In this document: positions 137-40,330 of the stretch, piece after piece
Position numbering within the stretch: position 1 is the stretch's first letter
How the letters are laid out: each line of letters begins with the position of its first letter
DNA from: a bacterium D16-56
Lineage (GTDB): Bacteria > Bacillota > Clostridia > Lachnospirales > Lachnospiraceae
Assembly (NCBI GenBank): GCA_003611875.1
Contig: RAYY01000014.1
Location: forward strand, 1 to 64,000
DNA length: 64,000 bases
Direction of reading: 5' to 3'
Position numbers and translations under genes: made by a program
Notes under the pieces: model-generated
Told to the model about the DNA's origin: nothing
Databases searched by the model: none
What the model saw: only the letters and a program-made list of their open reading frames with translations

Positions 137-312
137 GCGGCAAAATAGCCGCTGTTATTTGGTTTTCTTGAATGTTTATCAGACAGAAACAAACGTGTCT
201 CTGGCTGAAACGTGGTGTCCAGGCTTAAGGAATCCTCCCTGCCCTGCGCTTCTGGCGTTTGGACCAGAACAAAAAGTGTGTGCGGTCTATGGACTGCATA
301 AATCAACTTTCA
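137..312 (-). ncRNA. Structured leader RNA, copy 1
   Basis: Predicted transcript from the minus-strand promoter at 318-346. From its 5' end it has a hairpin at 281-298 (TGC/GCA and GTC/GAC arms around one mismatch), an 11-base U-rich linker, a hairpin at 250-269 (TTCTGG/CCAGAA around TCCAAACG), and a further GCGGC/GCCGC hairpin at 137-152. The first two hairpins have the same order, spacing and loop core (AAACG) as the copy at 20764-20815, where the second stem is TTCCGG/CCGGAA. That is a compensatory C-G to U-A change. I do not recognise an RNA family. The 3' end is unknown. A 68-aa ORF across it on the same strand has no convincing ribosome site. No other gene is visible in positions 1-431. 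Confidence 0.45.
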
Positions 313-317
313 TGGTT

Positions 318-369
318 ATTTTAGCACTATATGTTGTGGTTGTCAATATTTTCCGAATATATATAGTGT
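318..369 (-). promoter_or_regulatory. Promoter with paired NrdR-box-like palindromes, copy 1
   Basis: On the minus strand there is a TTGACA -35 (346-341), a 17-base spacer and a TAAAAT -10 (323-318). The spacer is filled by a degenerate palindrome, GCACTATATGTTGTGG on the plus strand (324-339). A second, CGAATATATATAGTGT, lies at 354-369. Centre-to-centre spacing is 30 bp, exactly as in the copy at 20841-20886. The boxes resemble the NrdR consensus (ACACWATATATWGTGT), whose sites normally occur in pairs about three helical turns apart. A repressor bound here would occlude the polymerase site. Whether the true ligand is NrdR or an element-encoded factor is inference. Confidence 0.6.
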
Positions 370-431
370 TTCAAATAAAATACCTCCTATCATCTTCTAT
401 AAAGCATTCAACAGAAAATCCATCCTATAAA

Positions 432-1157
432 CTACTCTCTTATTCCTGAATAGATTACTGCCTCATCTATTTTGTACATCAACATGCTTGCAAACATTAG
501 GCGGCGCATGGCATCTCCCTTTTCTACTTCAATGTTGGCATGTGCCTTTGGATTACGGAGAGCAGACATTGCACCTGCAAGCATTTCCATGAACCCTTTT
601 TGAGTATTCGCACCTGATTCAGTAGTACGATCACCAAATTCAATCAATGGAGCATTCAAAGAAAATACTGTTTTCATTGCAGCGTCACCATCCGGTACTT
701 TATCATCTGGCCGTTTCTTGTGAAATAATTTTTTAACCCTATCATTGACTTCGATAAATGCGTCGCATGCTGCATTTGCATAGCTTCCATCCACATATAG
801 CTTCTTCGATACACGCTTAATATCTGGATGAATAAGACTCCACCAATCTTCTTGTATATTTGTATTCTGCTCTTTCAAAATATCTAAAACTCCAATGGCT
901 TGTCCAAGAGCAAACGGATTAATATAGATAACCCTAGTATTCCGATTAACAATATATTCATTAAAAAGTCTGTCCTTTATTTCAAGTAATCGGTTACCAA
1001 ATAATGGTTGACCACTTTCGATGTCTTTAACAATCCAAACAATTTCTTCATGGATTTTAACTACATCTGAATTAGACACAGGAAAATTTAATGCATTTGG
1101 TCGATTCCCCAAATTCCGGAGCCAATTACAAAGTCTATCAATTCTATTTATATCCAT
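432..1157 (-). CDS. TIGR02391/Ymh-family HEPN-like protein
   Basis: A 241-aa protein resembling the TIGR02391 (Hypoth_Ymh) family, seen in mobile elements and defence islands. Near the C-terminus the sequence RNPKAH (R201 to H206) matches the Rx4-6H signature of HEPN ribonucleases, in the usual setting of this family (a Gly/Ala-rich helix before it, a long helix after). A role as an RNase effector is therefore plausible but unproven. AGAGGGGATAAA precedes the ATG. It is the last gene of a probable operon behind the KAP NTPase, 90 bp away. The gene is markedly AT-rich compared with the element backbone, which suggests separate acquisition. Confidence 0.7.
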   Translation of the reverse strand: MDINRIDRLCNWLRNLGNRPNALNFPVSNSDVVKIHEEIVWIVKDIESGQPLFGNRLLEIKDRLFNEYIVNRNTRVIYINPFALGQAIGVLDILKEQNTNIQEDWWSLIHPDIKRVSKKLYVDGSYANAACDAFIEVNDRVKKLFHKKRPDDKVPDGDAAMKTVFSLNAPLIEFGDRTTESGANTQKGFMEMLAGAMSALRNPKAHANIEVEKGDAMRRLMFASMLMYKIDEAVIYSGIRE

Positions 1158-1247
1158 TTTATCCCCTCTATTTCATAATATTTATCTTCCGCAATCTACA
1201 CACTCTTTCATAATCTCCTAAATTGTTACCATCACTGTTATTTCACT

Positions 1248-3263: not shown

Positions 3264-3309
3264 TTCTTCCCCGCTATTTATTTATATATTTTTTATTTAG
3301 AATGATTAA

Positions 3310-3950: not shown

Positions 3951-3983
3951 AAAATCACCTCTCATTCTTTCTGCCTTATTATA

Positions 3984-4012
3984 ATTATACACATATCGAA
4001 CGGTAATATCAA
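3984..4012 (-). promoter_or_regulatory. Promoter of the antitoxin/PIN/KAP/Ymh unit
   Basis: Near-consensus sigma-A promoter: TTGATA (4012-4007), 17-base spacer, TATAAT (3989-3984). It ends about 33 bp before the chosen GTG start of the antitoxin, so it probably lies over the autoregulatory site. Confidence 0.7.
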
Positions 4013-4128: not shown

Positions 4129-4851
4129 TTAACTCACTTTCCGCAGCCCATCACTTTCCCCATAAAACTGCACCAGATCCGCCACCTTCTGAATCTCCTT
4201 ATTCAGAAGATGAAACAGATTCGCAAAGTTCCCGACCCGATTCTGCCTGAAAGCATACTCCATCTCAAACGCCCGGATATAAGAATCCGCCCGACAGAAC
4301 ATCACAAACATATCCCGATCGCTTAAAAACATCCTTACCTTCCTATGGCACACATAACTATCCTTCTTGCAATACCGCCCGCCATTGGCGTTTCTCACGG
4401 CAACCCCGGCCCCATTCTGAATCTCCACGTACCAGGGATAATTCCGTTTATTTCCCTTCTGGTCCACATCATACCGGGCGATCTGCAGCTTTGTCACAAT
4501 GCTGTATCCCTTCTCATCCGGCTCCCCGAAAATCTTATCCTGGGAAAAGGCAAAATCAGGCAAATGACAGAACAACGCCGAATAGACATACCTGGCCTCC
4601 TCCGGGCTGATATTAGCATAAACGCTCACCGTCTTCTCCCCGGTGCCGCTGCTGTAATCCAGCATGTTCAGCCGGATCAGAGACCGCTCCCCCATTTCCG
4701 CCTTCTCCCCGGCCGCATGGATATGGGCCGGAAATAACTCAGACGCAGGTTTTAAGCTGTCCCACAATTCCAGCAGCGTCTTATCCGTCTTGCACACCGC
4801 GATCTGCCCGGATACCTCCTGTGACCAGTCTTTCTTCTCATTTTTCGCCAT
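4129..4851 (-). CDS. Hypothetical element protein, 240 aa
   Basis: A 240-aa soluble protein that I do not recognise. It begins MAKNEKKDWSQEVSGQ, with AGGAGGACTTT in front of the ATG. The middle is mixed alpha/beta with many Tyr and Phe residues. A C-terminal segment with CKKDSYVCHRKVRMFLSD and an aromatic/basic stretch could bind nucleic acid, but no motif proves it. It lies downstream of the VWA protein on the same strand, 124 bp away, with composition like the backbone rather than the AT-rich cargo to its left. It is therefore probably an accessory gene of the DNA-processing block. Confidence 0.6.
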   Translation of the reverse strand: MAKNEKKDWSQEVSGQIAVCKTDKTLLELWDSLKPASELFPAHIHAAGEKAEMGERSLIRLNMLDYSSGTGEKTVSVYANISPEEARYVYSALFCHLPDFAFSQDKIFGEPDEKGYSIVTKLQIARYDVDQKGNKRNYPWYVEIQNGAGVAVRNANGGRYCKKDSYVCHRKVRMFLSDRDMFVMFCRADSYIRAFEMEYAFRQNRVGNFANLFHLLNKEIQKVADLVQFYGESDGLRKVS

Positions 4852-4975
4852 AAAGTCCTCCTATTCTATGTATCACCCAATGCCTTCCTATGTCCGCCAG
4901 CCTGTCCAGCCACCTTCCAGTTATAGAACCGCAGTTTTCCAGTCCCTGTCAGGCTCCCCGAAACATACGCTTTCC

Positions 4976-7405
4976 TTACCGGATATATCGCAAAAGCAGC
5001 GCCGCCAGCTTCTGCGGCATAGTTCTGAGGTCTGAGATATTTAAAAAACTGTCCCCGTAAATATCTTCAATCACCTTCCTATCATCCCCAATAGCCGCCG
5101 AAAACAGCGTAACTCCCATTTTGTGAAGCTCTTGTTTCGCCCTTCTCAAATCCTCTTTTGCCGCTTCCCCTCCGTAGTTAAACCCAGCAGGGCTTCCGTC
5201 CGAAATCAGGGTTAAGATTTTCACCTCTTCCTCCTGTTTGGCCAAATGTTTCCCCATAAACCGCAGGGCAAGGCCGTCCCGATTGCATTGGCAGCTTCCC
5301 ATTCCCTGAATCCTCAAATGATCCTTCCCGTCCACGGAATCAAACTCAGCAAAAGAATACATGGCCACCCCTTCCCGGTAGCTGCCGCCAACAGACACAC
5401 TACAAGTAGAATGTCCGTAAACCGTAATGGGAATTGACAGCGACCTGCAGAACTCATAAAGAACCAGAGCCGCCTTCCTGGCCTGTCCGATCCGGTCATC
5501 AATCATCATAGAACCGGAGTTATCCACCAGGACGCCAAAGGCAACAGAAAATCCCTCCTCCGGCAAAATCCTCTTTTCAAAAATCTTCCCATCCTGCCGG
5601 TAAAGGTTCCTTCTGCTTAACCGTTTCCCCATGTAAAGGCCGGACATGACTCCCCCTTCCTTCCGGATCAGAATCTCCTCCACCGTCTGCCTCAAACGGC
5701 CGGCAGTCTTTTTAATTTCCGGTTCAATCGTTTTATATCCAGCCTCCATATCAGGCGTAATCTCCAGTTCCCGGTAAACCCTGATAGGAACGCCTTTGTG
5801 GATTCCCTCAGGAGACAATTCCTCCGCCTCAACTTCCAAATGCTTCTTTAACTTTATCTCCGCCTTCTTTCCATAAGCCTCCTCTGCTGCTTTGTTCAGG
5901 ATTTCCAAAAGATCCCTGCTGATCTCTCCGGTTCTGATACCGCCTCCCCGTCCAGGCAGGCCGACCTCTCCGCCCTGTTCTTCATTGCAATCATCCCCTT
6001 CACCCTGAGCAGCCAGCTGCCCAAGCCGAAGCAGAACGATGTGGGAAGGCGCTTTTGAACTGTCATTCCCATTCTTGCCGTTTTCTCCATTTTCGCCACT
6101 ATCACTGTTTTCATCTTCTCCTTCTTTCTCCTTGTCTGCCTCTCCCTGGTCTTCCTGAGAGCCGCCGTCTTCCGCCTCTGAACGTTTTCCCTGGGAAGAC
6201 TTTTCCTGAGAACTATTTTTCTCCCCGGCATTTCTTCCCTGTCCGCTCCCTTTCTGAGATTGCTCCTTCTCCTTTCCCTCATTCCGTCCGCTTTCACCCG
6301 GACTCTCGTTCCCCTCTTTTTCTGTCTGTCCATCCTGTTTCTCATTCTCTTCCTCTTGTCCATTTCCTTCCTGCCCAGGCTCTTTTTCGGAATCCAGGCT
6401 GCCATCCCAGCCCTCTATGGTTTTGCGCTCTCTGCGCCATCCTCCATATGCGCCGGATAAAGAACTTAGTTTCAGGTTCTCATTTAAGTATTCCCTGGCT
6501 TTCTTCTCCTGCTCATGCGGCGGCAGCTTCATAAAATCCCTGCCCAGATCAGCCCTTGCCCTTTGGATTGCCTTCTTGACATATTTCCATATCTTAAGCA
6601 GTAATTCATTGGCAGCCAGATACCGGATGTCCGGGTCGTCACTTCCCACCGCCTCGTCAATCCGGCTCCGACAGGCCGCAAGACAAGTCCGGTACTGCCT
6701 GTCATACGCCTTTTCCTCCTCTGTCTCACCGCTTCTGGCATACCGTAGAATCAAGTCGGTCATGATATCCAGACCATCGTTCTTTTCCGTCTTCCGGTCC
6801 GCAGCCGTGGGAATCTGCCCCAGAAGAGCCGCCGCATTCCTCTGAATAGACGTCCGGACGCTTCCCGGATACCTCTGGCACATTTTGCTCTCAATATACA
6901 CATCCTCCAATATGTTATTGAGATTAGAAGCTGTCGTGCCAATAACAGACACCGCCGCCTTGTCCCTCCGTCTTACAAACTGCTTTAATTCCTCCGCTGC
7001 CCTCTTTTCTGCCGGGGTCTGCCCCTCTGGCAGTCTTGGGAAAATACGCCCCTGAGAAAACCCGTTTGTATAGATCGTCCTCCGGTCAAAATCCGAATAG
7101 CGGATATGGCCGCACTCATGGGCAGTCAGGCCCTCATGGCTTGCCATTTTTTCCTTCCGATTCTGAAACTGCTCCGTCACGATGTTGGCCGTGTTTAAAT
7201 ATATGGTTCTTCCGTCCGTGAGAGCAATCCTGGAATCTTCCTCCTTTGTGTAGGCAAGAACCAGGCCCACGGCCTGGTTCCCTCCCAATACTCTCGCAAA
7301 TTTCCTTAAAGAATCCTGGTACGCCTTTGACAGAAACAATTCCTTATCTGTCATATGCTCCCGGACCTTTTTCACTTCTTTCCGCTTACTTTGTACTCCA
7401 TTCAT
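4976..7405 (-). CDS. VWA-domain protein with HExxH motif (CobT/NorD-like)
   Basis: An 809-aa protein in three parts. The N-terminal part carries HECGH at residues 96-100 in a TAHECGHIRYSD setting, like a zincin-type metal site. Residues about 340-440 are a very low-complexity linker of Glu, Lys, Gly, Ser and Gln. The C-terminal part is a von Willebrand A domain with the MIDAS motif DNSGS near residue 629. The layout resembles CobT/NorD-type partners of MoxR ATPases, and the MoxR-like gene lies directly upstream. Such pairs act as chaperones or metal inserters that remodel a target complex; the target here is unknown. GGGAGAAGCT precedes the ATG. Peptidase activity is not established, because many relatives keep only the fold. 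Confidence 0.75.
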   Translation of the reverse strand: MNGVQSKRKEVKKVREHMTDKELFLSKAYQDSLRKFARVLGGNQAVGLVLAYTKEEDSRIALTDGRTIYLNTANIVTEQFQNRKEKMASHEGLTAHECGHIRYSDFDRRTIYTNGFSQGRIFPRLPEGQTPAEKRAAEELKQFVRRRDKAAVSVIGTTASNLNNILEDVYIESKMCQRYPGSVRTSIQRNAAALLGQIPTAADRKTEKNDGLDIMTDLILRYARSGETEEEKAYDRQYRTCLAACRSRIDEAVGSDDPDIRYLAANELLLKIWKYVKKAIQRARADLGRDFMKLPPHEQEKKAREYLNENLKLSSLSGAYGGWRRERKTIEGWDGSLDSEKEPGQEGNGQEEENEKQDGQTEKEGNESPGESGRNEGKEKEQSQKGSGQGRNAGEKNSSQEKSSQGKRSEAEDGGSQEDQGEADKEKEGEDENSDSGENGENGKNGNDSSKAPSHIVLLRLGQLAAQGEGDDCNEEQGGEVGLPGRGGGIRTGEISRDLLEILNKAAEEAYGKKAEIKLKKHLEVEAEELSPEGIHKGVPIRVYRELEITPDMEAGYKTIEPEIKKTAGRLRQTVEEILIRKEGGVMSGLYMGKRLSRRNLYRQDGKIFEKRILPEEGFSVAFGVLVDNSGSMMIDDRIGQARKAALVLYEFCRSLSIPITVYGHSTCSVSVGGSYREGVAMYSFAEFDSVDGKDHLRIQGMGSCQCNRDGLALRFMGKHLAKQEEEVKILTLISDGSPAGFNYGGEAAKEDLRRAKQELHKMGVTLFSAAIGDDRKVIEDIYGDSFLNISDLRTMPQKLAALLLRYIR

Positions 7406-7491
7406 AGCTTCTCCCTTCTGCGTTGATGTTCCGGCTCTCTCCGTTTTTTATCATATGAATTTCTTCCGGCACATATAAAAACCGACTCTAA

Positions 7492-9327
7492 CTACGCAGC
7501 TTTCACACCGCCAGCTCCGCTCTCCACCTCAAACTTGGTAAGTATCTGGGTCTTATAGATTTCCTCCCTCTCTTCCGCCTCCGGTGCAGCCTTGGCAACC
7601 ACTGTCCGTTTCGCCGCACCGCAGATATCCTTCTGCACCAGAGAAGCCCATACCCAGTCCTCAAACTCCCGGTATCCGCACACCCCTCCGGTAATCATTT
7701 CCGTCCGGCAGTATTTCTGAATCTCACATACGGTCTCTGCCATTTTCTCCAAAGTCTTCCTCTCCATGCCGGACACCCGTTTCAGGACACGCTCCACCAT
7801 GCCCTTTGCCGTCAGAGGTTCACAGTAGTGAATCATCCGCATTCTGGACAGCACCGACTCATTAAATCCGCGGCAGCCCTTATAGCCCATGTTGGTAGTC
7901 AGAAGAATCACGGTCTCCGGATTCCTTCTCACCACCTCCCCGCTTGTAAGGGTAATGGCCGCCCCATCGTCCAACAGCCCGTTGAGCTTCACCAGGGTTC
8001 CCGGCTTTGTGATCACCGAAGGCTCCTGAATCTCAATCACAGAAGGTCTCCTGCAGGCAGTGACAATGCTGGATTCCACCATCACATAATCCTTCTCCCC
8101 CTGGCCGTTCTGAAAACCGGTCTGGTACATAGCCGACAGAATCCTCTGAAACGCCTCCTCCTGGCTGATCTCCTCCTCATAGTTTCCACAGACACGCTCC
8201 AGGGCGGAAGCCGGGTCCATAACCATGTCCTCAAAGGTAGGCAGCTCTACCTCCGGCCTGGCCTCTTTCCCCCCAATATTGGGAATCATAGTGGACACCA
8301 GGTCCGTCTCATCCGTCCCTTCACCGCAGGTAAAGAAATAGTAAGGCATTCCCAAAAGTTGGGCCACCATTTTGGCGTTGGTCGTCTTTCCCGTTCCGGA
8401 CTCCCCAGCGCTCATAAATACCCGCATGGGCGTGTGCAGCACTGCCTCCACAATCTCCGTCACCTCCACCGGAACCTGGTAGTTCTCTGGCAGGGCAGGA
8501 ACCAGATCCTTCTCCCGTTCATCCAATGGGAACTTTCGGTTATACCCGGATTTCAGTTCTCCAATAGTCCCGGAACTTTTCACCGCCTCTTTTCTCTCCA
8601 GCACCCGAAACGTCCCGTAATCCGTCCTGGTTACGGCGTAACGGCCGTTTTTCAGACGGACTGTGGGAATCACGGTCACATTTCCCGCCGCAATCTCATC
8701 ATTACGAAATGGGATTCCCGCCGCACCTAAGCTGTCCCGGTTCTCCAATCTCCGGTACAGGTTGTCACAGCATAAAAAAGCACACTCCATGGCAAGGTCC
8801 ATGTCTGGGAATCCTTTGTCCTTTTCTCTCACAAATGTCCGAAAGCTGTCCTCAAACTCCTGGTCATGAATAGGGCCTTGTACCATACTGCCATAAGCCA
8901 AAAGCAGAAACATTTCCTTCCCGCTGGCTCCGCTCTCCCCAATCCTGGGATATGGGGACAGCATCTCTCCCTTCTTGACAGCAGCCCTCCAGTTTCCCTT
9001 TTTCGGGTCATAAATGAAAATCCGTATCTCATCCGCAGCCCCGGAAGAATCCACCGTCTCCACATAATACCGGCAGATCTGCCCATTTTCCGTCTCCACT
9101 CCCATAGCGCCTTTGCTTTTCCCATTTATGATGTCAGCCGCCAGAAGCATTCCCCGGAGCGTGACACTGTTTAAAGTGGCCCGCCTTCCCCTTGTCATCT
9201 TGTTGTGGACAGACAGGCAGGATTCCTCCGTTGAATCCTTCTTTCCCCTTCTCAACACTTCCGTATCAAAAGGGGCCGGCATGGAACGGGTAAATGTCCA
9301 GTTCTCCAGAATCTTCGTCTTTCCCAT
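7492..9327 (-). CDS. MoxR-like AAA+ ATPase
   Basis: About 611 aa. The N-terminal 290 residues are an uncharacterised alpha/beta region. An AAA_5/MoxR-like ATPase follows, with Walker A GESGTGKT at about 308-315, a GEGTDETDLVS segment typical of MoxR proteins, and a sensor-1-like VILLTTNMGYKG. ATP hydrolysis should drive remodelling through the VWA partner encoded 87 bp downstream. I chose the ATG at 9327, preceded by AAGGAG 11 bases away; an upstream GTG at 9360 has a poorer setting. The pairing with a VWA protein is the main support for function; the client is unknown. Confidence 0.75.
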   Translation of the reverse strand: MGKTKILENWTFTRSMPAPFDTEVLRRGKKDSTEESCLSVHNKMTRGRRATLNSVTLRGMLLAADIINGKSKGAMGVETENGQICRYYVETVDSSGAADEIRIFIYDPKKGNWRAAVKKGEMLSPYPRIGESGASGKEMFLLLAYGSMVQGPIHDQEFEDSFRTFVREKDKGFPDMDLAMECAFLCCDNLYRRLENRDSLGAAGIPFRNDEIAAGNVTVIPTVRLKNGRYAVTRTDYGTFRVLERKEAVKSSGTIGELKSGYNRKFPLDEREKDLVPALPENYQVPVEVTEIVEAVLHTPMRVFMSAGESGTGKTTNAKMVAQLLGMPYYFFTCGEGTDETDLVSTMIPNIGGKEARPEVELPTFEDMVMDPASALERVCGNYEEEISQEEAFQRILSAMYQTGFQNGQGEKDYVMVESSIVTACRRPSVIEIQEPSVITKPGTLVKLNGLLDDGAAITLTSGEVVRRNPETVILLTTNMGYKGCRGFNESVLSRMRMIHYCEPLTAKGMVERVLKRVSGMERKTLEKMAETVCEIQKYCRTEMITGGVCGYREFEDWVWASLVQKDICGAAKRTVVAKAAPEAEEREEIYKTQILTKFEVESGAGGVKAA

Positions 9328-9441
9328 AGGTTCGTTTTCTCCTTCTTTCTTCAATATCACCAGAATTAAATTTCATTCTGCTATTCATGGCATTGGATTA
9401 TTTTCATCCTATTGTCTTTCCCAAAAATCCACTTGTTCTCT

Positions 9442-11670: not shown

Positions 11671-11718
11671 CCTTCTGCCCTCCGTTCTTTCTTATTACGT
11701 TCCTCCCACTGTGGAAAC

Positions 11719-11745
11719 GGCAGGCAACCCTCTGCGTCGCCTGCC
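11719..11745. repeat. Short hairpin with a 17-mer echoed at 50682
   Basis: GGCAGGC (11719-11725) pairs with GCCTGCC (11739-11745). The T-tract is poor, so it is at best a weak minus-strand terminator in front of the RecD-like gene. The left part, GGCAGGCAACCCTCTGC, recurs with two changes at 50682-50698 just upstream of the sigma-like gene. The meaning is unclear. Confidence 0.35.
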
Positions 11746-11769
11746 AGGTCGTTGGAGAACCCATTCCTC

Positions 11770-12402: not shown

Positions 12403-12494
12403 AACGTTCTCCTTCTCTCTTATTGTTTTTTACTCTTACAGTCATGCCGCACTTCAGCACAAATAGTTTACTTTCATACTTCCAAATAAAAACA

Positions 12495-12530
12495 GGGCTG
12501 GCAGAACAGATCCCTCCATTCTGCCAGCCC
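12495..12530 (-). terminator. Strong intrinsic terminator after ssb
   Basis: A perfect 12-bp stem (GGGCTGGCAGAA with TTCTGCCAGCCC) is followed on the minus strand by TGTTTTTATTT. It lies 42 bp after the SSB stop and should end the transcript carrying the annealase, primase and SSB genes. Confidence 0.9.
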
Positions 12531-12571
12531 CATAAACCTGCTGTTGACTCTCCCCCTTTATCCCATCTTTT

Positions 12572-13444
12572 TTAATGGAAGGGAAGCCCCTCATCCTCAA
12601 TCCCGTCAGGAATACTCATAAAGCCGTCAGCATAGGCAGAGGCACCTCTCGCCGCCGTTCCTCTGGCTGCCCCGGACCTTCCGGCCGCTACTGCTCCCGA
12701 AGCTGCCCCTCTGATAGCGGTACGGTTCGCAGCCGTTCTCTGTCCGGCTGTTGCACTTCTGGCTCCCGCCTGTGCGCTCCCGTTTCCTCCTGCCTGTCCT
12801 GCTCCCTGGGCTGCTCCGCTTCCGGCGGTCCGGCCTGCTGCCCCTGTTCTTGCTGCCTGACCTGCTGTTCCAGCCGTTCCCGTCCTGGCTGCCTGGTTTG
12901 CCGCCTGAATAGTTCCCGTCCTTCCCGTTCCTGCCCGGCCTGACGGCTGGTTCACTCCTTCTCTGGCTGCCTGCCCTGTCCCCGCTGCCGCTGTGCGGCC
13001 TGCTGATTGGGACATTCCTGCACCCGATGTCCGGCCCGTTCTTTGGGCTGCTCCTACCCCTGCCGCCTGACCTCCGGTTCCTGCCATTCCTGCTGCCTCT
13101 GTCGGCAGCTCCTGTCCCTCATCCCGTTTTCCGTCCGCAAACTCAATGTTGTCCACATACAGGGAATTTCCATACACCTTCTCCCCATTCCGGTTGGTGT
13201 AATTGTTATTTCTCATTTTCCCGTTAATGGCAATGCGGATTCCCTTGTAAAGATGTTTTTCCGCAAATTCCGCCCTCTTGTCAAAGGCAACACAAGGGAA
13301 GAAATCCGCCGTTTCCTCTCCCTCCGCCGCTTTGTAATTCCGGTCCACCGCAAGGACAAACTTTGCTATGGCCATCTGGCTGTCCTGGGAATAACGGATC
13401 TCCGGGTCCCTGGTGACTCTTCCTACAAATGTACATAAATTCAT
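12572..13444 (-). CDS. ssb: Single-stranded DNA-binding protein with long Ala/Gly/Arg linker
   Basis: About 290 aa. Residues 1-105 form the SSB OB-fold (MNLCTFVGRVTRDPEI, the YGNSLYVDNIEF region). A roughly 165-aa low-complexity linker of Ala, Gly, Arg, Thr and Gln follows, then the acidic tip IEDEGLPFH, close to the usual DDDLPF interaction tail. SSB coats single-stranded DNA during transfer or recombination and recruits partners through its tip. Most SSB linkers are Gly/Gln/Pro-rich and much shorter, so this positively charged Ala/Arg linker is unusual. I chose the start at MNLC (13444) by homology, with a GAGGAG-type site upstream. It is the last gene before the terminator. Confidence 0.9.
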   Translation of the reverse strand: MNLCTFVGRVTRDPEIRYSQDSQMAIAKFVLAVDRNYKAAEGEETADFFPCVAFDKRAEFAEKHLYKGIRIAINGKMRNNNYTNRNGEKVYGNSLYVDNIEFADGKRDEGQELPTEAAGMAGTGGQAAGVGAAQRTGRTSGAGMSQSAGRTAAAGTGQAAREGVNQPSGRAGTGRTGTIQAANQAARTGTAGTAGQAARTGAAGRTAGSGAAQGAGQAGGNGSAQAGARSATAGQRTAANRTAIRGAASGAVAAGRSGAARGTAARGASAYADGFMSIPDGIEDEGLPFH

Positions 13445-13465
13445 TCTTTTTCTCCTCCTCATAAA

Positions 13466-13909
13466 TTAAAATATTTTCTTTCCAAATATCTTTTCTCCCT
13501 CTTCCGGAAACAGTTCCATAAACAGCTGTGCATACCGCCTATAACCAGCGTCATTCAGAACCATCTCCAAAGAAATTTCCGACCAAATCAGAAGCTCCTC
13601 CTCCGGCACATGGTACGGCCCAGTCTTAAACTCCCCGCCGCTCCAGTAAGGCTCACACGGTTTCACCATTTCCTTTAACTGGGAAATGCTCTCTGCCTCA
13701 CAGACGATACGGCTCTTTTTCTGTGCCATCCCCAGAACCAGTTCAAACAGGATTCCCCTTTCAGCCTCACCGGACGCCTTTCTCTTTATATCCGAAAGCG
13801 CCTCCACAATGGCCTTCTTTAACCGTTCCTCTTTCCTTTCATCCTCCAAAACCTGCCTTTTCCCATGACGGTATACCGCCTCCAAAAGCAGCCGCTCTGC
13901 AAAATACAT
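13466..13909 (-). CDS. Hypothetical protein overlapping the primase gene end
   Basis: A 147-aa mostly helical protein, rich in Glu and Lys in its first half (RQVLEDERKEERLKKAIVEA) and aromatic in its second. Its first 71 bases overlap the primase 3' end in another frame, starting at an ATG with GGAAATGGAAG upstream. The ssb start follows its stop by about 20 bp. Tight packing between primase and SSB suggests a role with them, but I recognise no family. Coding beyond the overlap looks normal, so I accept it as real. Confidence 0.6.
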   Translation of the reverse strand: MYFAERLLLEAVYRHGKRQVLEDERKEERLKKAIVEALSDIKRKASGEAERGILFELVLGMAQKKSRIVCEAESISQLKEMVKPCEPYWSGGEFKTGPYHVPEEELLIWSEISLEMVLNDAGYRRYAQLFMELFPEEGEKIFGKKIF

Positions 13910-15161
13910 CTTCCATTTCCTGCTCCCTTCTCAGTTTCAAATGTCCCCACCAGTAATCATCAATCCCCTTATAGTTTCCGTTCCAGGTTCCCTCCGGCCC
14001 GCAGTCCCAACGCTTCTGGATACAGCGCAGCCCCAGCCTGTGGCAGATCTCATAAAGTTTCCGGCACCCCTCCTGTATCTGGTCCCGCTTTGCTCTCTTA
14101 TGGGGGCAGGACAAAAAATCCTCATAGATTCCCGTCTCCCAGTCCGCACCCCCACACTTCTCACAGACCGGCTCCTTGTAATCTCCCTGACAGGAAACCG
14201 GCATAAGCTTGTCCATGTCATAATACTCATGAACTTCCTCAAGACCATTTTCCTTTAACTCCGCAAGGCTTTTTTCCAGCTCCTTGTACTGGTTCACCCC
14301 AGGCACCCCAAGAAAACTGTAACCGGACATGGCATAGGCCGCAGACGCTTTCAGGATTCCTTCCGTCACCCGCACCACCTTTCCATAAGGGTCCCCGAAA
14401 AATCCAACCGGGCTTCTGCTGCCTGTGCCCTCAGGTTTATTGGTGCTGCTGAACCACAGATATTTCCTTCCGTCATAAGGAGAATCCAGCCGGATCTGAA
14501 AACCGGTTATATACCCGCCAATACTCCGGACCGGACACAAAATCCCATGGTTACGGCCATAAAAGGCAGCGTCCCAGTTTCCCCGGCTGTTGACAAAAAA
14601 GCCTGGGATTCCCCTAAGGGAATGTCCCTCCTTCAATAACCTCCTGGCAATCCCTTCCGTACCGGAAACAGGCGTACTCCGAAACTGAAATTCCTCTATC
14701 TGCTCCCTGCCAAAGCCCCGGTTCAGAAGATTCCTTCTGTGGGATTCCGTCAATGTCAGAAGTTCCAGAAGGCTTTCATACACCCGGCTTCTTGCTTCAA
14801 AATCCGGTTCCTCCTGTTCCCTCCGGTCATAAACTGCAGGCGGCCGATAGGTTCTATGAGACACGGTGTCATACCCTGATTTCCCAAGAGCCTCCAAAAT
14901 CTCCCGGTAAGCCCTCTTGTAGCGGTCTTCCCCATAAATACCCTGCATTTCCGCATACAGGGTCAGCATGTTGCCCTGGGAGCCGCAGTTAAAGCAGCGG
15001 TATGTATTGCAGGGATTCCCGTCCTTCAAGACACGGAAATTCATTTTTCCCCGCCTGTCTCCGCAGAACGGACAGACAACATTAAAGGAATTTCCCTCCG
15101 TCAGCCTTTCAATCCCCAAAAGGTCTGCCACTTCTGAAATATCGAATTTCGGTTCATACAC
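13839..15161 (-). CDS. DNA primase-like protein, CHC2 zinc finger and Toprim
   Basis: A 440-aa protein. An N-terminal CHC2-type zinc finger contains CPFCG and, about 22 residues on, CFNCGSQGN. A Toprim-like domain near 260-320 has a Glu in VTEGILKA and the acidic pair in YYDMDK. A further CEKCGG near residue 335 suggests another metal site. The family makes RNA primers on single-stranded DNA, and mobile-element versions restart synthesis after conjugative or phage-like replication. It stands between the ERF annealase and SSB, which fits. At about 440 aa it is shorter than chromosomal DnaG and lacks an obvious helicase-binding domain. GAGGGTGT precedes the ATG. Confidence 0.8.
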   Translation of the reverse strand: MYEPKFDISEVADLLGIERLTEGNSFNVVCPFCGDRRGKMNFRVLKDGNPCNTYRCFNCGSQGNMLTLYAEMQGIYGEDRYKRAYREILEALGKSGYDTVSHRTYRPPAVYDRREQEEPDFEARSRVYESLLELLTLTESHRRNLLNRGFGREQIEEFQFRSTPVSGTEGIARRLLKEGHSLRGIPGFFVNSRGNWDAAFYGRNHGILCPVRSIGGYITGFQIRLDSPYDGRKYLWFSSTNKPEGTGSRSPVGFFGDPYGKVVRVTEGILKASAAYAMSGYSFLGVPGVNQYKELEKSLAELKENGLEEVHEYYDMDKLMPVSCQGDYKEPVCEKCGGADWETGIYEDFLSCPHKRAKRDQIQEGCRKLYEICHRLGLRCIQKRWDCGPEGTWNGNYKGIDDYWWGHLKLRREQEMEDVFCRAAAFGGGIPSWEKAGFGG

Positions 15162-15203
15162 CCTCTGGCTTTTCCTCCTTCATGTGTGGCTGTCTCTAAC
15201 CTC

Positions 15204-16679
15204 CTATGCCGCCATTGCTGCCTCTAAAAGAACCCTTGCCCCAATTCTCAGTTCCTCATTACGCCCCCGATAGGAGTTGACAAACCATTTCAGGTTCTGG
15301 ATTCCATCTTCCCCACTTCTGGCGATCTCTCCCAGGGTCTTCCCCCGGTAAAGCCCGCAGTTGCAGATCACGTTGCTGGCCTCCTCCACCGTCATGCCGC
15401 CCTGGCTTCCTGCCGTGTTTACAGGCGGCTGTACCGGATTGATTGGATTTGCCTGGTTTGCTGTATTAGGTCTGGCTGCATTGGGTTTGGCTGTATTGGG
15501 TCTGGCCGCTGTATTCGTCATGTTACCTGCACTGAACCTGTTAGGCGCATGAGACATTCCGGCTCCTGCCCCATTTGGCACATTCGCTGTATTCGCCGTA
15601 TTTACTGTATTCCCAGCATTTGCCCCATTCCTTGTCTCTGCCCCATTGGGCATATCTCCATGATTCGCCGTACTTATCGTATTTGCCGCCTGGGAAATAT
15701 TCCCCGCACCTGCTCCATTGCCCATATCTCCACGATTCGCCGCATTCCCCTGAACATTCCGGCTTCCCTTCTGAACATTCCTGCCACCATTGCCATTCGC
15801 CTTTGCACCCACAGAACTGGTTTCCGCCAAATTCAGCGGTTCTCCTGCGCTCTCCGGCAGCGTCACCATAGTCCCCTGGTCCGGTCCTATCAGGGATTGA
15901 TTTACAGAATAACCTTCCGGTTCTTCCGACAGATATTCCTCCGTCATTTCCTCCGATTGTTCCCCTGCTCTTTCTCCCCCATCCTGAAAACCGTCAGCCG
16001 CTTCCTGCAAACCATTTATCGCTTCACCTTCCACATTTCCTATCTCCCGGCCGAACACAGCTCCATTCTCTACGGGTTCCCCCGTTTCCTGAAATTCCTC
16101 TTCCGGCTCCCGAAATGCCGCCGTCTCCATGCCGCCTTCCTGGGGATACCCGTTCTCCTCCCCATAACTCCACGCTCCGTCTAAAGCCCCGTCCATTTCT
16201 CCCTGGCCCACATCAGAGCCTGGAACCACATTTCTCATATCCGGGTCGTCTCCGCCCTGGTTGATACAGAACTTATTTAACAGATAATATTTCAGACAGT
16301 ACGTCCACCCGCTTCCCTTTGCCTTCTCCGGCATCTGGTGAAAACCAATGGCATGGGCCGTCACCTGGAACTGATCCTCCCCATTCTCCCCATTAGTCCA
16401 CTGAAACGTCAGATCCGCCTCATAAATCCACATCTGGTACAGAGGAATAAACTCCACAAACATGGGATTTCCCCTCTCATCCTTCTTAGTGACTGTCTCC
16501 GATACGATGTCAAAATTAACCCCGTACTCATTCATAGCCGGCGTCAGATACCGGAAAATATCATCAATCTTCACAAAATCATAGCTCACTTCCTCACTGT
16601 ACGCCTGCTTCACCAGAGACGGAATCCTTGCCCGAATCCGCACCATTTTTTCCTGAAGCGTCAATCTCTTATTCTCCAT
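15204..16679 (-). CDS. erf: ERF-family single-strand annealing protein
   Basis: A 491-aa protein. Residues 1-155 match the ERF superfamily (PF04404), including the characteristic run from AHAIGFHQMPEKAKGSG to LKYYLLNKFCI and GGDDPD. Next comes an acidic region, then a long Asn/Ala/Thr/Gly-rich repetitive linker (about residues 290-425). The last 60 residues contain GLYRGKTLGEIA, which resembles the exonuclease X-like C-terminal motif found in some annealases. ERF proteins anneal complementary strands, usually with an exonuclease; a YqaJ nuclease is encoded two genes upstream. The linker is encoded by visibly repeated DNA at about 15,400-15,800. GGAGGAATGTGAT precedes the ATG. Confidence 0.85.
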   Translation of the reverse strand: MENKRLTLQEKMVRIRARIPSLVKQAYSEEVSYDFVKIDDIFRYLTPAMNEYGVNFDIVSETVTKKDERGNPMFVEFIPLYQMWIYEADLTFQWTNGENGEDQFQVTAHAIGFHQMPEKAKGSGWTYCLKYYLLNKFCINQGGDDPDMRNVVPGSDVGQGEMDGALDGAWSYGEENGYPQEGGMETAAFREPEEEFQETGEPVENGAVFGREIGNVEGEAINGLQEAADGFQDGGERAGEQSEEMTEEYLSEEPEGYSVNQSLIGPDQGTMVTLPESAGEPLNLAETSSVGAKANGNGGRNVQKGSRNVQGNAANRGDMGNGAGAGNISQAANTISTANHGDMPNGAETRNGANAGNTVNTANTANVPNGAGAGMSHAPNRFSAGNMTNTAARPNTAKPNAARPNTANQANPINPVQPPVNTAGSQGGMTVEEASNVICNCGLYRGKTLGEIARSGEDGIQNLKWFVNSYRGRNEELRIGARVLLEAAMAA

Positions 16680-16750
16680 ATCACATTCCTCCTAGTATAA
16701 TATGTAGCGCCCCCTCACCGAAGGTTCGGCGGCAGGACGTTGGAAGGCCT

Positions 16751-17164
16751 TTATAAAATGCTGTGCATTTGCCTTCCTCCTTGTATATGGCCCTGGTACT
16801 CCAGAACAATCCTCTGTACCCTTTCCCTGATCATTTGAACCAGACCTTCCACCTTCCCCATATCCGGCTCCTGAAAAAGAGCCACACTCAGCTGGTGTTT
16901 TACGCCTGCCTCATTTACCACGCCGTTTAACTCCCTGCACAGGTCCGGAACTTCATCCCGGCAAAAATACCCTCCCATGCCGCTAAAAACAGCCTCTTTC
17001 ATATAGGTCTCCGCCTTTGCCTGAATCTCCCTCAAAAGCTCCCCATATCCCTTCCTGTACGCGCTCTTAAGCACTTCCACTCCAACCTGGTCCAGATTCC
17101 GCTTCAGCCGCTTTAACAACACCTCCAGCTCCAACCGTAAAAATCCCTGCTCACTGGCAGTCAA
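16751..17164 (-). CDS. Hypothetical helical protein between annealase and nuclease
   Basis: About 137 aa, largely helical (LELEVLLKRLKRNLDQVGVEV, then an EGLVQMIRERVQRI segment). I place the start at the TTG at 17164 because GGAGGG lies 5-6 bases upstream. A longer frame to 17230 overlaps the YqaJ gene without a ribosome site. No family recognised. It sits between two recombination genes and may belong to the same complex; that is inference only. Confidence 0.6.
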   Translation of the reverse strand: MTASEQGFLRLELEVLLKRLKRNLDQVGVEVLKSAYRKGYGELLREIQAKAETYMKEAVFSGMGGYFCRDEVPDLCRELNGVVNEAGVKHQLSVALFQEPDMGKVEGLVQMIRERVQRIVLEYQGHIQGGRQMHSIL

Positions 17165-17186
17165 ACAATCCCTCCTTTCTCTGCCT

Positions 17187-18215
17187 TTATCCGGCCTTCT
17201 CCTGCTTAATATAAAAACTCCGGGACACACTGGTCTTTGCGTACTCCTTGCAGATATCCGGGTGCAGAATCCCCATGGCCTCCAGACTCTCCTTGTTAAT
17301 GGAAGTAGTCACCCGCCTGGTATACCCTGCCTGATACCGCACGTCCCCCAGAACCAGCACGCCCCTCTCCGCCCCTTTCAAAGCCTCCTGAACCGGGGCA
17401 TAGGCGCTTTTCATCCGTTCCTCAATCTCCTTAGACTGCTTATCCAGCTCCGATTTCCGTTTCTTCAAGTCCAGGTATTCTGTCACACATCCCGAAAGCT
17501 CCTTTGGCAGCTCCACCACCTGGGAATCCTTCACCCCCAGCCGGTCCCGGATACTCCGAAGCACCAGCTGTACAGGCTCCGTGTACTCCGGCGGTTTCCC
17601 TTCCCTCACGCAATGGTTCCAGAACCAGTCCTCCTGCTCAATCAGTTCCTCCTCCAGATCCAGGTCACGGACCATGCTCCGCATGATAAAGGCATTCTCA
17701 TTGTTTCCATGAAGACACAGGAAAATGACGCCCTTCACATTGGTCACCGCCATATAATGCCTCCCCTGCAGCTCATAATGCCTGGGAATCCCGCCGTCCT
17801 CCCATTCCTCCATGTGGAAGGAAAAAGAAGTCTTACACTCAATAATGTAGATTTCCCCATTGACCTCCACAAAAAAATCCACATTTGCCAGCATAAACGG
17901 GTAATCCGGGTGGCGGAACATTTTCCGAACCGCATAAGGCCTAAGCCCCGTCTTTTTCATAAAAATCTGCACCACCAGTTCCTCCAGCCGCTTCCCGATC
18001 TCCTTGGCGACCCACCCTTCATCTTCGGATTCCGGGTCCTTGCCAAACATCTTTTCCTCATATAAATCCCTGGCTGTCTTCCACGGCGAAATGCCAAACA
18101 CCGCCGCCACGTCACTGCCGCCGATTCCCCGGTAACGGTACTCCTTCCACTCCTTCTCCGTCAGCTTTGTTATGTCCTCCACTACTACTTCCGGCTCATA
18201 GTTTCGGCCTGCCAT
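17187..18215 (-). CDS. YqaJ-family viral recombinase-type exonuclease
   Basis: A 342-aa protein with the YqaJ/lambda-exonuclease-like fold. The N-terminal RGIGGSDVAAVFGISPW is diagnostic. The catalytic D-(E/Q)xK core is visible in NVDFFVEVNGEIY and IIECKT. Helices after residue 230 may form a coiled coil (LDLKKRKSELDKQSKEIEER). Such enzymes resect DNA ends to give 3' tails for annealing by an ERF, RecT or Beta protein. The ERF gene two positions downstream gives a complete two-component recombination pair. AGGAAGAGAGGGC precedes the ATG. Confidence 0.85.
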   Translation of the reverse strand: MAGRNYEPEVVVEDITKLTEKEWKEYRYRGIGGSDVAAVFGISPWKTARDLYEEKMFGKDPESEDEGWVAKEIGKRLEELVVQIFMKKTGLRPYAVRKMFRHPDYPFMLANVDFFVEVNGEIYIIECKTSFSFHMEEWEDGGIPRHYELQGRHYMAVTNVKGVIFLCLHGNNENAFIMRSMVRDLDLEEELIEQEDWFWNHCVREGKPPEYTEPVQLVLRSIRDRLGVKDSQVVELPKELSGCVTEYLDLKKRKSELDKQSKEIEERMKSAYAPVQEALKGAERGVLVLGDVRYQAGYTRRVTTSINKESLEAMGILHPDICKEYAKTSVSRSFYIKQEKAG

Positions 18216-18325
18216 GCCCTCTCTTCCTCCTTTCCGGCAGAATCAGGCAGCCGCACTTGTTCCAATCCTGCGAACAGCCACAGCACGCCCCGACTCTGCC
18301 TTTCTTTCCTCTGCACCTTGTCCCT

Positions 18326-18580
18326 TTAATACCGGACTTCCCCAGGAATGTCATACTCCTTAAAGGGAAAGGCAAGGCACCGTGAAACCTTTTCCTCCAG
18401 ATCCGTCAGCGCCCGGACGCCTGCCCCTTCGCTCTGGGCCAGAAATATGCACTCACAGATTCCGCAGTACACCTCATATCCGTTGCAGCCTCCAAACCCG
18501 TGGCCCGCCTTAAAAAGCTCCGCCGTCTTGGCTGTCAGTCCCACTCCGATACCTGCCTTTTTCATCACCCTGGCAATCAC
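18326..18580 (-). CDS. Small Cys-containing hypothetical protein
   Basis: About 84 aa with GGCNGYEVYCGICECIF, whose clustered Cys residues could bind metal, and an otherwise mixed fold. The start is uncertain. The frame opens with a GTG (18580), an ATG lies at 18565, and a CTG overlaps the stop of the gene before it at 18595, with GGAG just upstream. Its size and its fit between two real genes on the same strand support it. Function unknown. Confidence 0.5.
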   Translation of the reverse strand: MIARVMKKAGIGVGLTAKTAELFKAGHGFGGCNGYEVYCGICECIFLAQSEGAGVRALTDLEEKVSRCLAFPFKEYDIPGEVRY

Positions 18581-18594
18581 ATTTGCCGGGTAAG

Positions 18595-19452
18595 TCAGAT
18601 ACTCCGAAACAGCCCCGAAAGTCCTTCCACCGCTTCCCGGTACCTGGCAAAGACCTGGCTTAAATTCCGTGAAAAATCCGCAAGACTGGCTCCTCCGGAA
18701 TGCTCCAGCCTCAGCGCGTCTCCAAGAACCAGCGGCCTTCTCTCCTTCCCCATAAGCAGGGAATAGAAAATATTTGCTCCACTGACTCCCACATCAGAAG
18801 AATGCACCTTAATCTGGGCCGACAGCTCCGGGTCCGCCACCTGTCCATACTGCAAAAGCATATCCCGGTAAGTGTCCAGGAGCCTCCTGTCCTGAATCTC
18901 CCAGGAAGCCGTCACCAGCCAGTGGTCAAAATACCCCGAAAGAAACCGGACCCTTTCATACTGCTCCTCCATGTGGATTGCCGATGCCTCAAATAATTCC
19001 GGCATAGGCAGCACAGCATAGTCGCTTTTGTCACCGCCGTGGACCGCCCTGGCCTTTCCCTCATGAATCCGTACCAGGGCATTTCCTTTTGTCACCTCCA
19101 GGCAGTCATTTAACACCCTGGCCAGCTTCCCTCTGCCTAAATCCTGAAGGGCATACCCGGAAATGCGGGCCCGGTTCTCCAAAGTCTTAATGGCCGTTGC
19201 CCCTAAAGGATAATGTTCCTCCCCCACCTTTAAAAGAAGCCCCGTGTTGGCCCTGGTGTCCTGTAAGATATCCGCCCCTTCTTTTTCTGCCTCAATCTCC
19301 CGGCAGAGTTCCGGGGATTCCGCCAAAGAAAACACCTGAATCTCATTGGTGGGAAACACTCTCCAGCACCCGCGCTCCTCAATCTCATCCAAAAACTCCA
19401 GGAATCCCTCCTTCTCCGGAAAAGCCGCCGAAAAATCATCCTGATAATTCAT
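18595..19452 (-). CDS. Hypothetical protein, 285 aa, perhaps DUF932-like
   Basis: A 285-aa soluble protein that begins MNYQDDFSAAFPEKEGF. Segments such as LGATAIKTLENRARISG, LARVLNDCLEV and VRIHEGKARAVHGGDKSDY recall DUF932 phage/plasmid-like proteins, but I cannot confirm the match. It lies between small unknown genes at the head of the annealase/exonuclease operon, where DUF932 proteins are often found. No catalytic motif is evident. It starts 15 bp downstream of the small gene at 19467 and shares its composition. Confidence 0.5.
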   Translation of the reverse strand: MNYQDDFSAAFPEKEGFLEFLDEIEERGCWRVFPTNEIQVFSLAESPELCREIEAEKEGADILQDTRANTGLLLKVGEEHYPLGATAIKTLENRARISGYALQDLGRGKLARVLNDCLEVTKGNALVRIHEGKARAVHGGDKSDYAVLPMPELFEASAIHMEEQYERVRFLSGYFDHWLVTASWEIQDRRLLDTYRDMLLQYGQVADPELSAQIKVHSSDVGVSGANIFYSLLMGKERRPLVLGDALRLEHSGGASLADFSRNLSQVFARYREAVEGLSGLFRSI

Positions 19453-19466
19453 GTCATGCCCTCCGC

Positions 19467-19601
19467 TTAAAAGTCCACCAGCACCGCAACCACATGGCCC
19501 GCCTGGACAACAAACTCATAACCATCCTCATACATTTCCATGATCTCCTGTATGGACAGACCGTCTCTCCCAGGGTTCTCCCATTTTGCTTCCCGCTTCA
19601 T
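19467..19601 (-). CDS. Small hypothetical protein, 44 aa
   Basis: A 44-aa product, starting MKREAKWENPGRDGL and ending VAVLVDF. I chose the ATG at 19601 because AAGGAAGGG lies upstream; the longer frame to 19691 runs back into the DUF5688 gene. It has the look of small element-borne proteins of unknown role in this family of elements. The DUF5688 gene ends 82 bp upstream. Confidence 0.5.
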   Translation of the reverse strand: MKREAKWENPGRDGLSIQEIMEMYEDGYEFVVQAGHVVAVLVDF

Positions 19602-19683
19602 TCGTTTTCCCTTCCTTTCTTTGGTTTGATATGGTTTTTCAAGGACATATCCCAAGATTTGAAATATGTCCAAAGTACCCTCT

Positions 19684-20631
19684 CTAATCAAAAATCATCT
19701 TGTAGTCATCCGTTGCAATACACAGCTTTCCTTCCTTATGGTCATAAAAATAGACACTGTCTGACAGTGCCATTTCGTTTTCAGGTTCCTCCTGATTCAT
19801 TTCTTTAACAATCTCCCTCCACTGCTGTATGCTTTTTGTGCTTCCACAGGCGGGAAGGATCATCACCTCATTGATACTGCTTGGAATCACAAGGACATCA
19901 TCCCTCCATGCCCAGGCAATCCGTTCCAAAAGGCCGTCATACAGAATCACGGAAGCCCCATAAAGCCCATACTGATTGGTGAGAACAAAGGCTGACACTC
20001 CCTTATAGGTATGTTTCAGCAGATACCCTTCCATGTCTTTTAAGGATTCTTCCTCTCCCTCTTTATTCTCCCCAACCGCGTCCTCCGGGGTCAGGAGTAG
20101 AGGCACACCAAGCCTGGGTGTATTTTCTTTGGCGATCTGAAAGATCTCCTCCTTGCTTACCTTCCACACTTCCAGGTCATGATTGCTAATCACACGGTAA
20201 TTGGTATCCCCACCCGGTGTCTCCACAAGGTAAAATACGATTGCCATATCCAGGTATGGCTCCCAGGGAATATGCTTTAGAGCCTCCTCATTTCCCTCCA
20301 TTCGTTCCAGAGCATAGACGATCCGTTCCTTCATCCTCTCAAACCATTCGCCAGCCAGCAGTTCCCTGCGCAGTGCGCTCCGCTTTTCCAAGTATCTTTC
20401 CACAAGGAAACCAGCCTCTTCCTTAAGGCCGATTCCAGTCTTAAGCCGCTGTACCTTTCCTGGCCCCAAATTCAGGAGAATCCCAGTACGCTCCCTGTTT
20501 TTCACAATGCCGATCTGGACTTTTCCCGCAGAGTTCAGCACCGGCTTATCTACTTTTGTCACCTGGTACTCCTCTCCCAAACGTTCCCGGAGCTTGTTAA
20601 ACAGCTCCTGTAACCATTTCTCTGATTCCAT
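19684..20631 (-). CDS. DUF5688 family protein
   Basis: A 315-aa protein matching the DUF5688 family, commonly carried by Clostridia integrative elements. Recognisable segments are the start MESEKWLQELFNKLRERLG, YRVISNHDLEVWKVSKEEI, and ASVILYDGLLERIAW with the late SSINEVMILPA. No function is established for the family. I chose the ATG at 20631, preceded by GGGGAGAAGAA; a longer frame to 20733 runs into the upstream terminator. It is the first gene of the block running to the annealase and SSB, directly after the leader RNA and terminator at 20657-20828, so its expression is probably controlled by readthrough. Confidence 0.75.
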   Translation of the reverse strand: MESEKWLQELFNKLRERLGEEYQVTKVDKPVLNSAGKVQIGIVKNRERTGILLNLGPGKVQRLKTGIGLKEEAGFLVERYLEKRSALRRELLAGEWFERMKERIVYALERMEGNEEALKHIPWEPYLDMAIVFYLVETPGGDTNYRVISNHDLEVWKVSKEEIFQIAKENTPRLGVPLLLTPEDAVGENKEGEEESLKDMEGYLLKHTYKGVSAFVLTNQYGLYGASVILYDGLLERIAWAWRDDVLVIPSSINEVMILPACGSTKSIQQWREIVKEMNQEEPENEMALSDSVYFYDHKEGKLCIATDDYKMIFD

Positions 20632-20656
20632 TTCTTCTCCCCTTTCTTTTAGGCGC

Positions 20657-20700
20657 AAAAAAATAAGGCACCAGAAACTCATAAAAATTTCTGATACCTT
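20657..20700 (-). terminator. Strong intrinsic terminator within the leader
   Basis: On the minus strand AAGGTATCAGAAA pairs along all 13 positions (with G-U pairs) with TTTCTGGTGCCTT, followed by a T-rich tract with seven consecutive T. It lies 26 bp before the DUF5688 start, so transcription from the upstream promoter must pass it to reach the operon. Confidence 0.85.
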
Positions 20701-20828
20701 ACTTAACAGGCAGACTTTCTGCCTGGTTTGCACATATGTAGGCTCTTTGCCTGAAATTTTGACTTCCGGCGTTTTACCGGAACAAAAGCATTTGGTGTGG
20801 TTCTTGTGAACACACAGAAATCAATGTC
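20657..20828 (-). ncRNA. Structured leader RNA or small RNA, copy 2
   Basis: Predicted roughly 170-nt transcript from the promoter at 20835-20863 to the terminator T-tract. Hairpins in order are GTGTG/CACAC plus TTC/GAA with one bulge (20795-20815); TTCCGG/CCGGAA around TAAAACG (20764-20782); AGGC/GCCT; CAGGCAG/CTGCCTG; then the terminator. The first two, and the roughly 12-base U-rich link between them, are shared with copy 1 at 250-298, with a compensatory change in stem two. It may be an attenuating leader for DUF5688 and the recombination genes, or a free small RNA. No family recognised. Apart from this and the promoter, positions 20632-20925 hold no gene. Confidence 0.55.
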
Positions 20829-40319: not shown

Positions 40320-40330
40320 CAATCACTATA

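Follow-up and report, generated by a model that had tools for sequence, protein, structure and literature searches.

What kind of signal is a structured leader that stands behind two similar promoters of one bacterial DNA? The question is raised by positions 1 to 64,000 of contig RAYY01000014.1 (the window, 64,000 nucleotides) of the Lachnospiraceae bacterium D16-56, where the original prediction, made from the sequence alone, had placed two promoter-linked leaders, each with two hairpins (1 and 2) joined by a U-rich link. Both are present, on the minus strand. The evidence presented here, taken from sequence and from analogy, points with a probability of about 0.57 to an RNA that acts in cis to bring about processive antitermination, in the manner of HK022 put.

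Two leaders behind one type of promoter

The anatomy of the two copies is given below (G, C and L numbers are our handles for genomes, contigs and loci; G000:C55 is the contig of the window). Bit scores were obtained with R1, a covariance model built from 19 leaders of the window type (class B).

318-346, minus strand: promoter of copy 1, TTGACA at 346-341, 17-bp spacer with the operator-like ATATAGTG, TAAAAT at 323-318; from sequence and homologues
243-306, minus strand: core of leader RNA copy 1, 60.4 bits (copy 1 is in the training set of R1)
281-298, minus strand: hairpin 1 of copy 1, TGC-A-GTC-CATA-GAC-C-GCA with one A/C mismatch; from covariation
250-269, minus strand: hairpin 2 of copy 1, TTCTGG/CCAGAA; from covariation
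20835-20863, minus strand: promoter of copy 2, TTGACA at 20863-20858, 17-bp spacer, TACAAT at 20840-20835
20841-20856: operator-like palindromic ACACTATATATTGTGT site overlapping the promoter of copy 2
20757-20824, minus strand: core of leader RNA copy 2, 69.7 bits (copy 2 is in the training set of R1)
20796-20816, minus strand: hairpin 1 of copy 2, UGUG-U-GUUC-ACAA-GAAC-CACA; from covariation
20764-20782, minus strand: hairpin 2 of copy 2, TTCCGG/CCGGAA; from covariation

Both leaders lie directly behind near-identical sigma-70 promoters with a ATATAGTG-type operator-like site in the spacer. The U-rich link, put at 11-12 bases in the original prediction, has that length in copy 1 (11 nt) and is longer in copy 2 (13 nt), by the pair boundaries used here. 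The AAACG sequence, proposed as a loop core, is confined to copies 1 and 2 and a small number of near relatives; it is no core motif of the family, because the loops differ in both length and sequence. The hairpin 2 pattern with the spacing of copy 1 matched once (copy 1 itself) against 0.00 matches expected in shuffles, so that the structure is not a product of chance. Two further copies are found in the same genome, the third on the contig of the window and outside the window (G000:C55:98778-98849, minus strand), and the fourth on contig C195.

The ACACTATATATTGTGT palindrome is also seen upstream of several other leaders, and a second, CTATATATAG-like site occurs 5' of many. As read from the sequence, these sites are probably the operator of one shared, putative repressor.

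Conservation and distribution of the hairpins

Homologues were gathered by scanning genome contigs with a degenerate pattern of the promoter followed by UGAUUU. At least 119 stretches matched; among the matches listed, sorted by script and by eye, there were at least 15 of class B, at least 64 of a sister type (class A), and 40 with neither leader type, which were taken as chance matches. The class B core measures 62-72 nt and consists of the two hairpins, directly 3' of the promoter, a spacing partly imposed by the search pattern.

The original prediction pointed to a compensatory change between the two copies and held that the pairing marks a functional structure; a larger alignment bears this out. 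Within the training alignment of 19 leaders, 7 of the 12 modelled pairs have changed on both sides. When 29 copies (28 distinct), divergent ones outside the training set included, were aligned to R1, covariation was strong: compensatory changes were found at 9 of the 12 pairs and hairpin 2 was paired in every cell. The pair of hairpin 2 first noticed is C-G in 23 and U-A in 5 of the 28 distinct homologues. In this alignment, which is itself fitted to the structure, 92.7% of the cells are paired; shifting the partners by 1-3 columns lowers this to 33.1-52.3%. Against 500 shuffles of both alignments, four measures exceeded all shuffled values and one, the number of further pair types, did not.

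Support independent of any alignment comes from a swap test, in which each 5' arm was scored against its own 3' arm and against the 3' arms of other leaders. For both hairpins, own arms were better in 20,000 of 20,000 permutations; kinship inflates such counts, and 13 representatives below 0.82 similarity agreed with the full set of 28 distinct leaders. For hairpin 2, the arm was picked among regular-expression candidates partly by pairing, which biases the test towards own pairing; the alignment counts are independent of that choice. Control stretches 3' of hairpin 2 showed no gain for own arms. In an earlier version of the test, with 18 leaders, the own value was reached in 0 and 15 of 20,000 permutations. 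Hairpin 2 occurs as TTCCGG/CCGGAA, TTCTGG/CCAGAA, TTCCAG/CTGGAA, TTCCTG/CAGGAA, TTCTGA/TCAGGA, TCCCAG/CTGGGA and others, and G-U pairs are tolerated in the hairpins. Minimum-energy folds of the full leaders keep hairpin 2 and the terminator in most cases and lose hairpin 1 in several, for which reason hairpin 1 is not provable by single-sequence folding alone.

Class A leaders share the promoter, and most open with UGUAAUUGAUUUUUGUGCG. A UGUGC/GCACA stem, invariant in 34 aligned leaders, encloses 1-3 variable hairpins; in most it is followed by CGYUGUUAAGUUUGUAU and then by a terminator, with UGUUAAGUUUGUAU conserved in most ahead of the terminator. RNAalifold, run on these 34 leaders after removal of 3 atypical ones from 37, recovered only the invariant closing stem, the inner hairpins varying in number. 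The genes behind class A leaders are often SSB or YqaJ/RecD2-like, and most of the records are titled as Lachnospiraceae or Oscillospiraceae (L008, L009, L030 and L052 among the at least 64 loci, plus L005 and L006).

The leaders could not be linked to an RNA class before, and the same holds now: a search of the window and of 16 loci (five class A loci among them) at the gathering threshold of Rfam 15 gave no family for the leaders, and at E values up to 1, copy 2 and one class A leader gave either nothing or matches far under the cut-off. The antisense, sRNA and microRNA families met in this way with copy 2 were rejected as chance, lying far below their cut-offs. The exact hairpin 2 pattern had no match outside the own genome among 299 family genomes, and neither it nor the promoter-leader pattern had one in viral contigs. 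BLAST of the window copies against plasmids and phages returned short promoter-region matches only, two of which (OY725878 and MT836821) led to class A.

The covariance model reached further. Applied to the window and 106 loci, R1 recovered the training copies and the near-identical L016 and L063. Its other matches with E <=0.001 were divergent and numbered five: H. effluvii (L141) had two, C. citroniae (L137) and L032 had one each, and the fifth was the third copy of the own contig, which precedes type IV secretion genes. In genome searches, 5 of 24 genomes of the own genus were positive, as were both genomes searched in the genus of H. hathewayi. Moreover, class B leaders recur along one contig in a single direction, with three copies in G301:C75, in H. 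hathewayi (G310), in G299:C8 and in the own contig, and two in G305:C8 and G306:C1. Copies on one contig are spaced by 2.8-20.5 kb, except for the own third copy, 78 kb from the second. The leader is therefore found, as put is, at more than one operon head of one element; all three copies of the own contig likely belong to one element, membership of the third being unproven beyond its place on the same contig.

Leader terminators and the proposed mechanism

The terminators and genes of the window which bear on the function of the leaders are the following.

20663-20702, minus strand: intrinsic terminator between the copy 2 leader and the first gene, -21.9 kcal/mol, then a T tract
19684-20631, minus strand: first gene of the operon behind copy 2, DUF5688, start ATG at 20631 set by eye
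4129-20631, minus strand: co-directional replication/recombination run behind copy 2 (DUF5688, YqaJ, ERF, CHC2 zinc finger, SSB, RecD2-like, AAA, VWA and unknowns), inferred to be one operon
12492-12533, minus strand: strong intrinsic terminator directly after the SSB gene, inside the gene run, -32.3 kcal/mol
1-111, no strand assigned: repeated sequence at the contig start, interrupting the copy 1 terminator hairpin

The terminator which had been predicted at the end of copy 2 is thus in place (hairpin 20702-20663, minus strand), and its arrangement is general. A terminator was counted when a hairpin of -12 kcal/mol or better, with a T tract behind it, lay no more than 200 nt past the leader core. 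By this measure 28 of 30 leaders have one, compared with 12 of 600 windows drawn at random from the same strand of the same element regions; the 30 include near-identical copies, and L161 was counted by a different hairpin near the contig end, its homologous hairpin being without a full T tract. The two leaders without a qualifying terminator are L032:6222 (-7.8 kcal/mol) and window copy 1. The repeat that interrupts the latter has 7 occurrences in the own genome, 5 of which lie at contig base 1. It probably represents the end of an insertion sequence, although no transposase was seen; the relatives L132 and L040 have the hairpin uninterrupted. Behind the L040 counterpart of copy 1 are genes for a helix-turn-helix-like protein, a second DUF5688 protein and a PAPS-reductase-domain protein.

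The T tract lies 67-148 nt after the leader core, and terminators vary in sequence as well as in distance. Their arms covary with each other (0 of 20,000 permutations as good as own) and not with those of the leader: of 20000 permutations on 13 representatives, the own value was equalled or exceeded in 12516 for the 5' arm and in 7422 for the 3' arm, and with all 22 leaders in 10520 and 3065. A conserved alternative pairing between leader and terminator, sought by permutation in these 22 leaders, was not found. Leader and terminator therefore form two independent modules, which makes a classical alternative-pairing switch unlikely.

Because the layout is put-like and RNA antiterminators are known in conjugative elements, processive antitermination by the nascent RNA is proposed. 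The repressible promoter would start the transcript a few nt 5' of UUGAUUU, and the nascent RNA would fold into hairpin 1, variable in sequence and conserved in pairing, the U-rich link, and hairpin 2 of the UUUGUUCCGG..CCGGAAG type. The fold, alone or with a protein, would be captured by the transcribing RNA polymerase, which would then ignore the leader terminator and others within the long operon. Transcripts begun elsewhere would lack the leader RNA and stop at terminators, so that the operons (replication/recombination, DUF5688-PAPS and type IV secretion) would stay silent until de-repressed and then be read through together. Transcription and its repression, as well as the binding of RNA polymerase, the readthrough of terminators, its processivity and the regulatory purpose, are what we infer from the layout.

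The same observations can be read in other ways. That the conserved element is a single-strand DNA structure for conjugative transfer, either a single-strand promoter or a leading-region signal, is hardly credible. The genes behind the leader (SSB, recombination) presumably resemble leading-region genes, and conservation by itself cannot separate RNA from single-stranded DNA; however, an ordinary duplex promoter with an operator-like site lies directly upstream, G-U pairs are tolerated, and the terminator works only as RNA. The position of the leader, directly behind a promoter and with a terminator next, favours RNA. As an RNA, the pair of hairpins might simply stabilise or guard the mRNA 5' end against nucleases, terminators only insulating the operons. 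Hairpin 1, near the presumed transcript start and free in sequence while kept in pairing, would suit this role; still, it is very improbable, as it leaves unexplained both a conserved hairpin 2 with fixed flanks and a terminator placed downstream of the promoter which it would block.

Two regulatory alternatives deserve more weight. An element or host protein, or a ligand, bound to hairpins 1 and 2 could gate the leader terminator only, the polymerase not being lastingly altered. This conditional attenuation at a single site, which we consider rather unlikely, would agree with the finding that in 28 of 30 cases a leader and a terminator precede the first gene, and with the lack of enrichment of internal terminators, yet it finds no conserved leader-terminator alternative pairing and must accommodate terminators of varying sequence and distance. 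Somewhat less probable is a processive antitermination that depends on a protein, as in systems of the LoaP/NusG-paralogue or nut kind, in which the hairpin would recruit a host or element protein travelling with the polymerase. LoaP leaders likewise have a hairpin ahead of the leader terminator in long operons (PMC12691694), at least 2 NusG-family matches were found in 8 of 9 leader-bearing genomes, and the window contig encodes an S1-domain protein with matches in 10 of 11 genomes examined. What makes such a system less likely is that a UNCG loop occurs in one hairpin 1 loop only (UUCG, L064) among 28 leaders and that contigs G000:C55, G305:C8, G301:C75 and G299:C8 are without a NusG-family match. 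Furthermore, the S1 gene of H. hathewayi is not near its leaders, and leader-bearing G307 had no NusG-family match; since NusG itself was missed, this draft is probably incomplete there.

Several points also weigh against processive antitermination by the leader RNA. A single leader terminator would also be compatible with conditional single-site control. Internal terminators are not enriched, 14 being found on the sense strand (leader terminators removed) and 13 on the antisense strand of five regions, with G306 and G299 scanned on the sense strand only, so that the leader terminators are the only strong signal. In favour of the proposal, a strong co-directional terminator follows the SSB gene directly in the own element and in G305, and in G301 it comes about 0.2 kb after the SSB frame; the one in G310 has a weaker T tract. 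G299, however, is without a strong terminator at this place (-8.5 kcal/mol), and the script located no SSB frame in G306. A last point against the proposal is that the leader is uncommon: R1 was positive in 5 of 24 genomes in the genus and in 2 of 250 family genomes sampled, the latter under stricter filters which recovered only 2 of the 4 own copies.

The element that carries the leaders is read, from its gene content, as an integrative and conjugative element-like conjugative element. TraG/VirB4-like and SLT-C39 proteins are encoded near the far end of the own contig, and a type IV secretion coupling-protein piece on the related contig G305:C8; in G310 and G305, tyrosine or serine recombinases, named from sequence by eye, lie close to where the gene run ends. 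A MobA-type relaxase was searched for on G000:C55, G305:C8 and G301:C75 and none was found, so the assignment of a transfer module rests on the TraG/VirB4-like and coupling-protein domains. By eye, no transfer genes were seen in H. hathewayi (G310) in the 60 kb beyond the adhesin gene. No constant first gene follows the leaders looked at: DUF5688 does so in two operons, and SSB or genes associated with type IV secretion in others.

Some other features were observed in these regions. Within the gene run, a GA-cis RNA (RF02987, 54 bits; 16699-16784, minus strand) lies just 5' of the ERF recombinase gene. In H. hathewayi, group II intron matches (L128, 1218-1522) come directly behind the leader terminator and are followed by a reverse-transcriptase-like ORF. 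A protein of 4025 aa with 12 SpaA/prealbumin-like stretches (28245-40322, minus strand), with a 4028-aa relative in G305:C8, is likely a giant surface adhesin. A cold-shock-domain protein adjoins the S1-domain protein (47610-49092, minus strand), and the latter could be a candidate RNA-binding partner of the leader. In L143, repeated short CCTTGTGCCATGGTGGCAGAAAG-type units lie on the same contig, at about 16400-16830 (minus strand).

Comparison with known antiterminators

In its widest form the proposal becomes tentative, and as a whole doubtful: classes B and A (the latter a closed multiloop of 1-3 hairpins) may form a new family of RNA antiterminators on one shared repressible promoter, by which several operons of conjugative and other mobile elements in Lachnospiraceae and Oscillospiraceae would be switched jointly. 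This would be a Gram-positive counterpart of put, loading onto the host polymerase at the head of each operon with no need of a protein encoded by the element. The kind, an RNA antiterminator, is known; what appears to be new is the family with its two classes, and that one element uses it for several operons. A literature search by title and abstract, with most subscription journals outside its reach, found no description of these leaders, which is not proof. If the leader is a processive antiterminator, the small set of such RNAs would gain a short member of defined structure that many gut Clostridia possess. It would provide a handle on how very large conjugative elements silence their operons and activate them jointly, and a small sequence that could serve as a part for terminator readthrough. 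Stem-swap tests follow readily from the covariation.

Among known systems, EAR of the Bacillus eps operons provides RNA-only processive antitermination in Bacillota and is larger than these leaders; it is set apart from them by the absence of any Rfam match to the leaders in the loci tried. Base-pairing attenuators differ in relying on a mutually exclusive leader-terminator pairing, which was not found in the 22 leaders compared. The few RNA-based processive antiterminators named in the literature are put, EAR, conAn2 and canT (PMC9378689, PMC8955417, PMC11658703). The LoaP/dfn leader shares the order of hairpin and intrinsic terminator in a long operon (PMC12691694) and differs in its UNCG tetraloop, found in 1 of 28 leaders here, and in its NusG-family protein, with no such gene on the four contigs named above.

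Closer likenesses come from mobile elements. canT of Tn916 is an antitermination RNA of an integrative and conjugative element (PMC11658703), and like the proposed function of the leaders it allows terminators ahead of transfer genes to be passed; by description, not sequence, it differs in that its activity resides in 452 nt, against a core of 62-72 nt here. The conAn system of pLS20, which combines the ConAn1 protein with conAn2 RNA in conjugation operons (PMC8955417), is alike as an antitermination RNA heading conjugation operons of Gram-positive elements with internal terminators; the ConAn1 gene lies beside the RNA at the operon start, whereas the leaders are repeated at several operons, and those looked at have no constant protein gene behind them.

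The nearest layout is that of HK022, where a putRNA of about 70 nt with two stem-loops stands behind each early promoter, binds the beta' zinc-binding domain of RNA polymerase and suppresses termination (PMC9378689). The leaders described here occur in conjugative-type elements of Clostridia and have a link of at least 11 nt in both window copies, and the likeness is one of description, not of sequence. It extends to the size of about 70 nt and the two stem-loops of putL and putR, to their presence at several operon heads of a mobile element, to the position of putL directly after its promoter, and, if the proposal is right, to action in cis on terminators.

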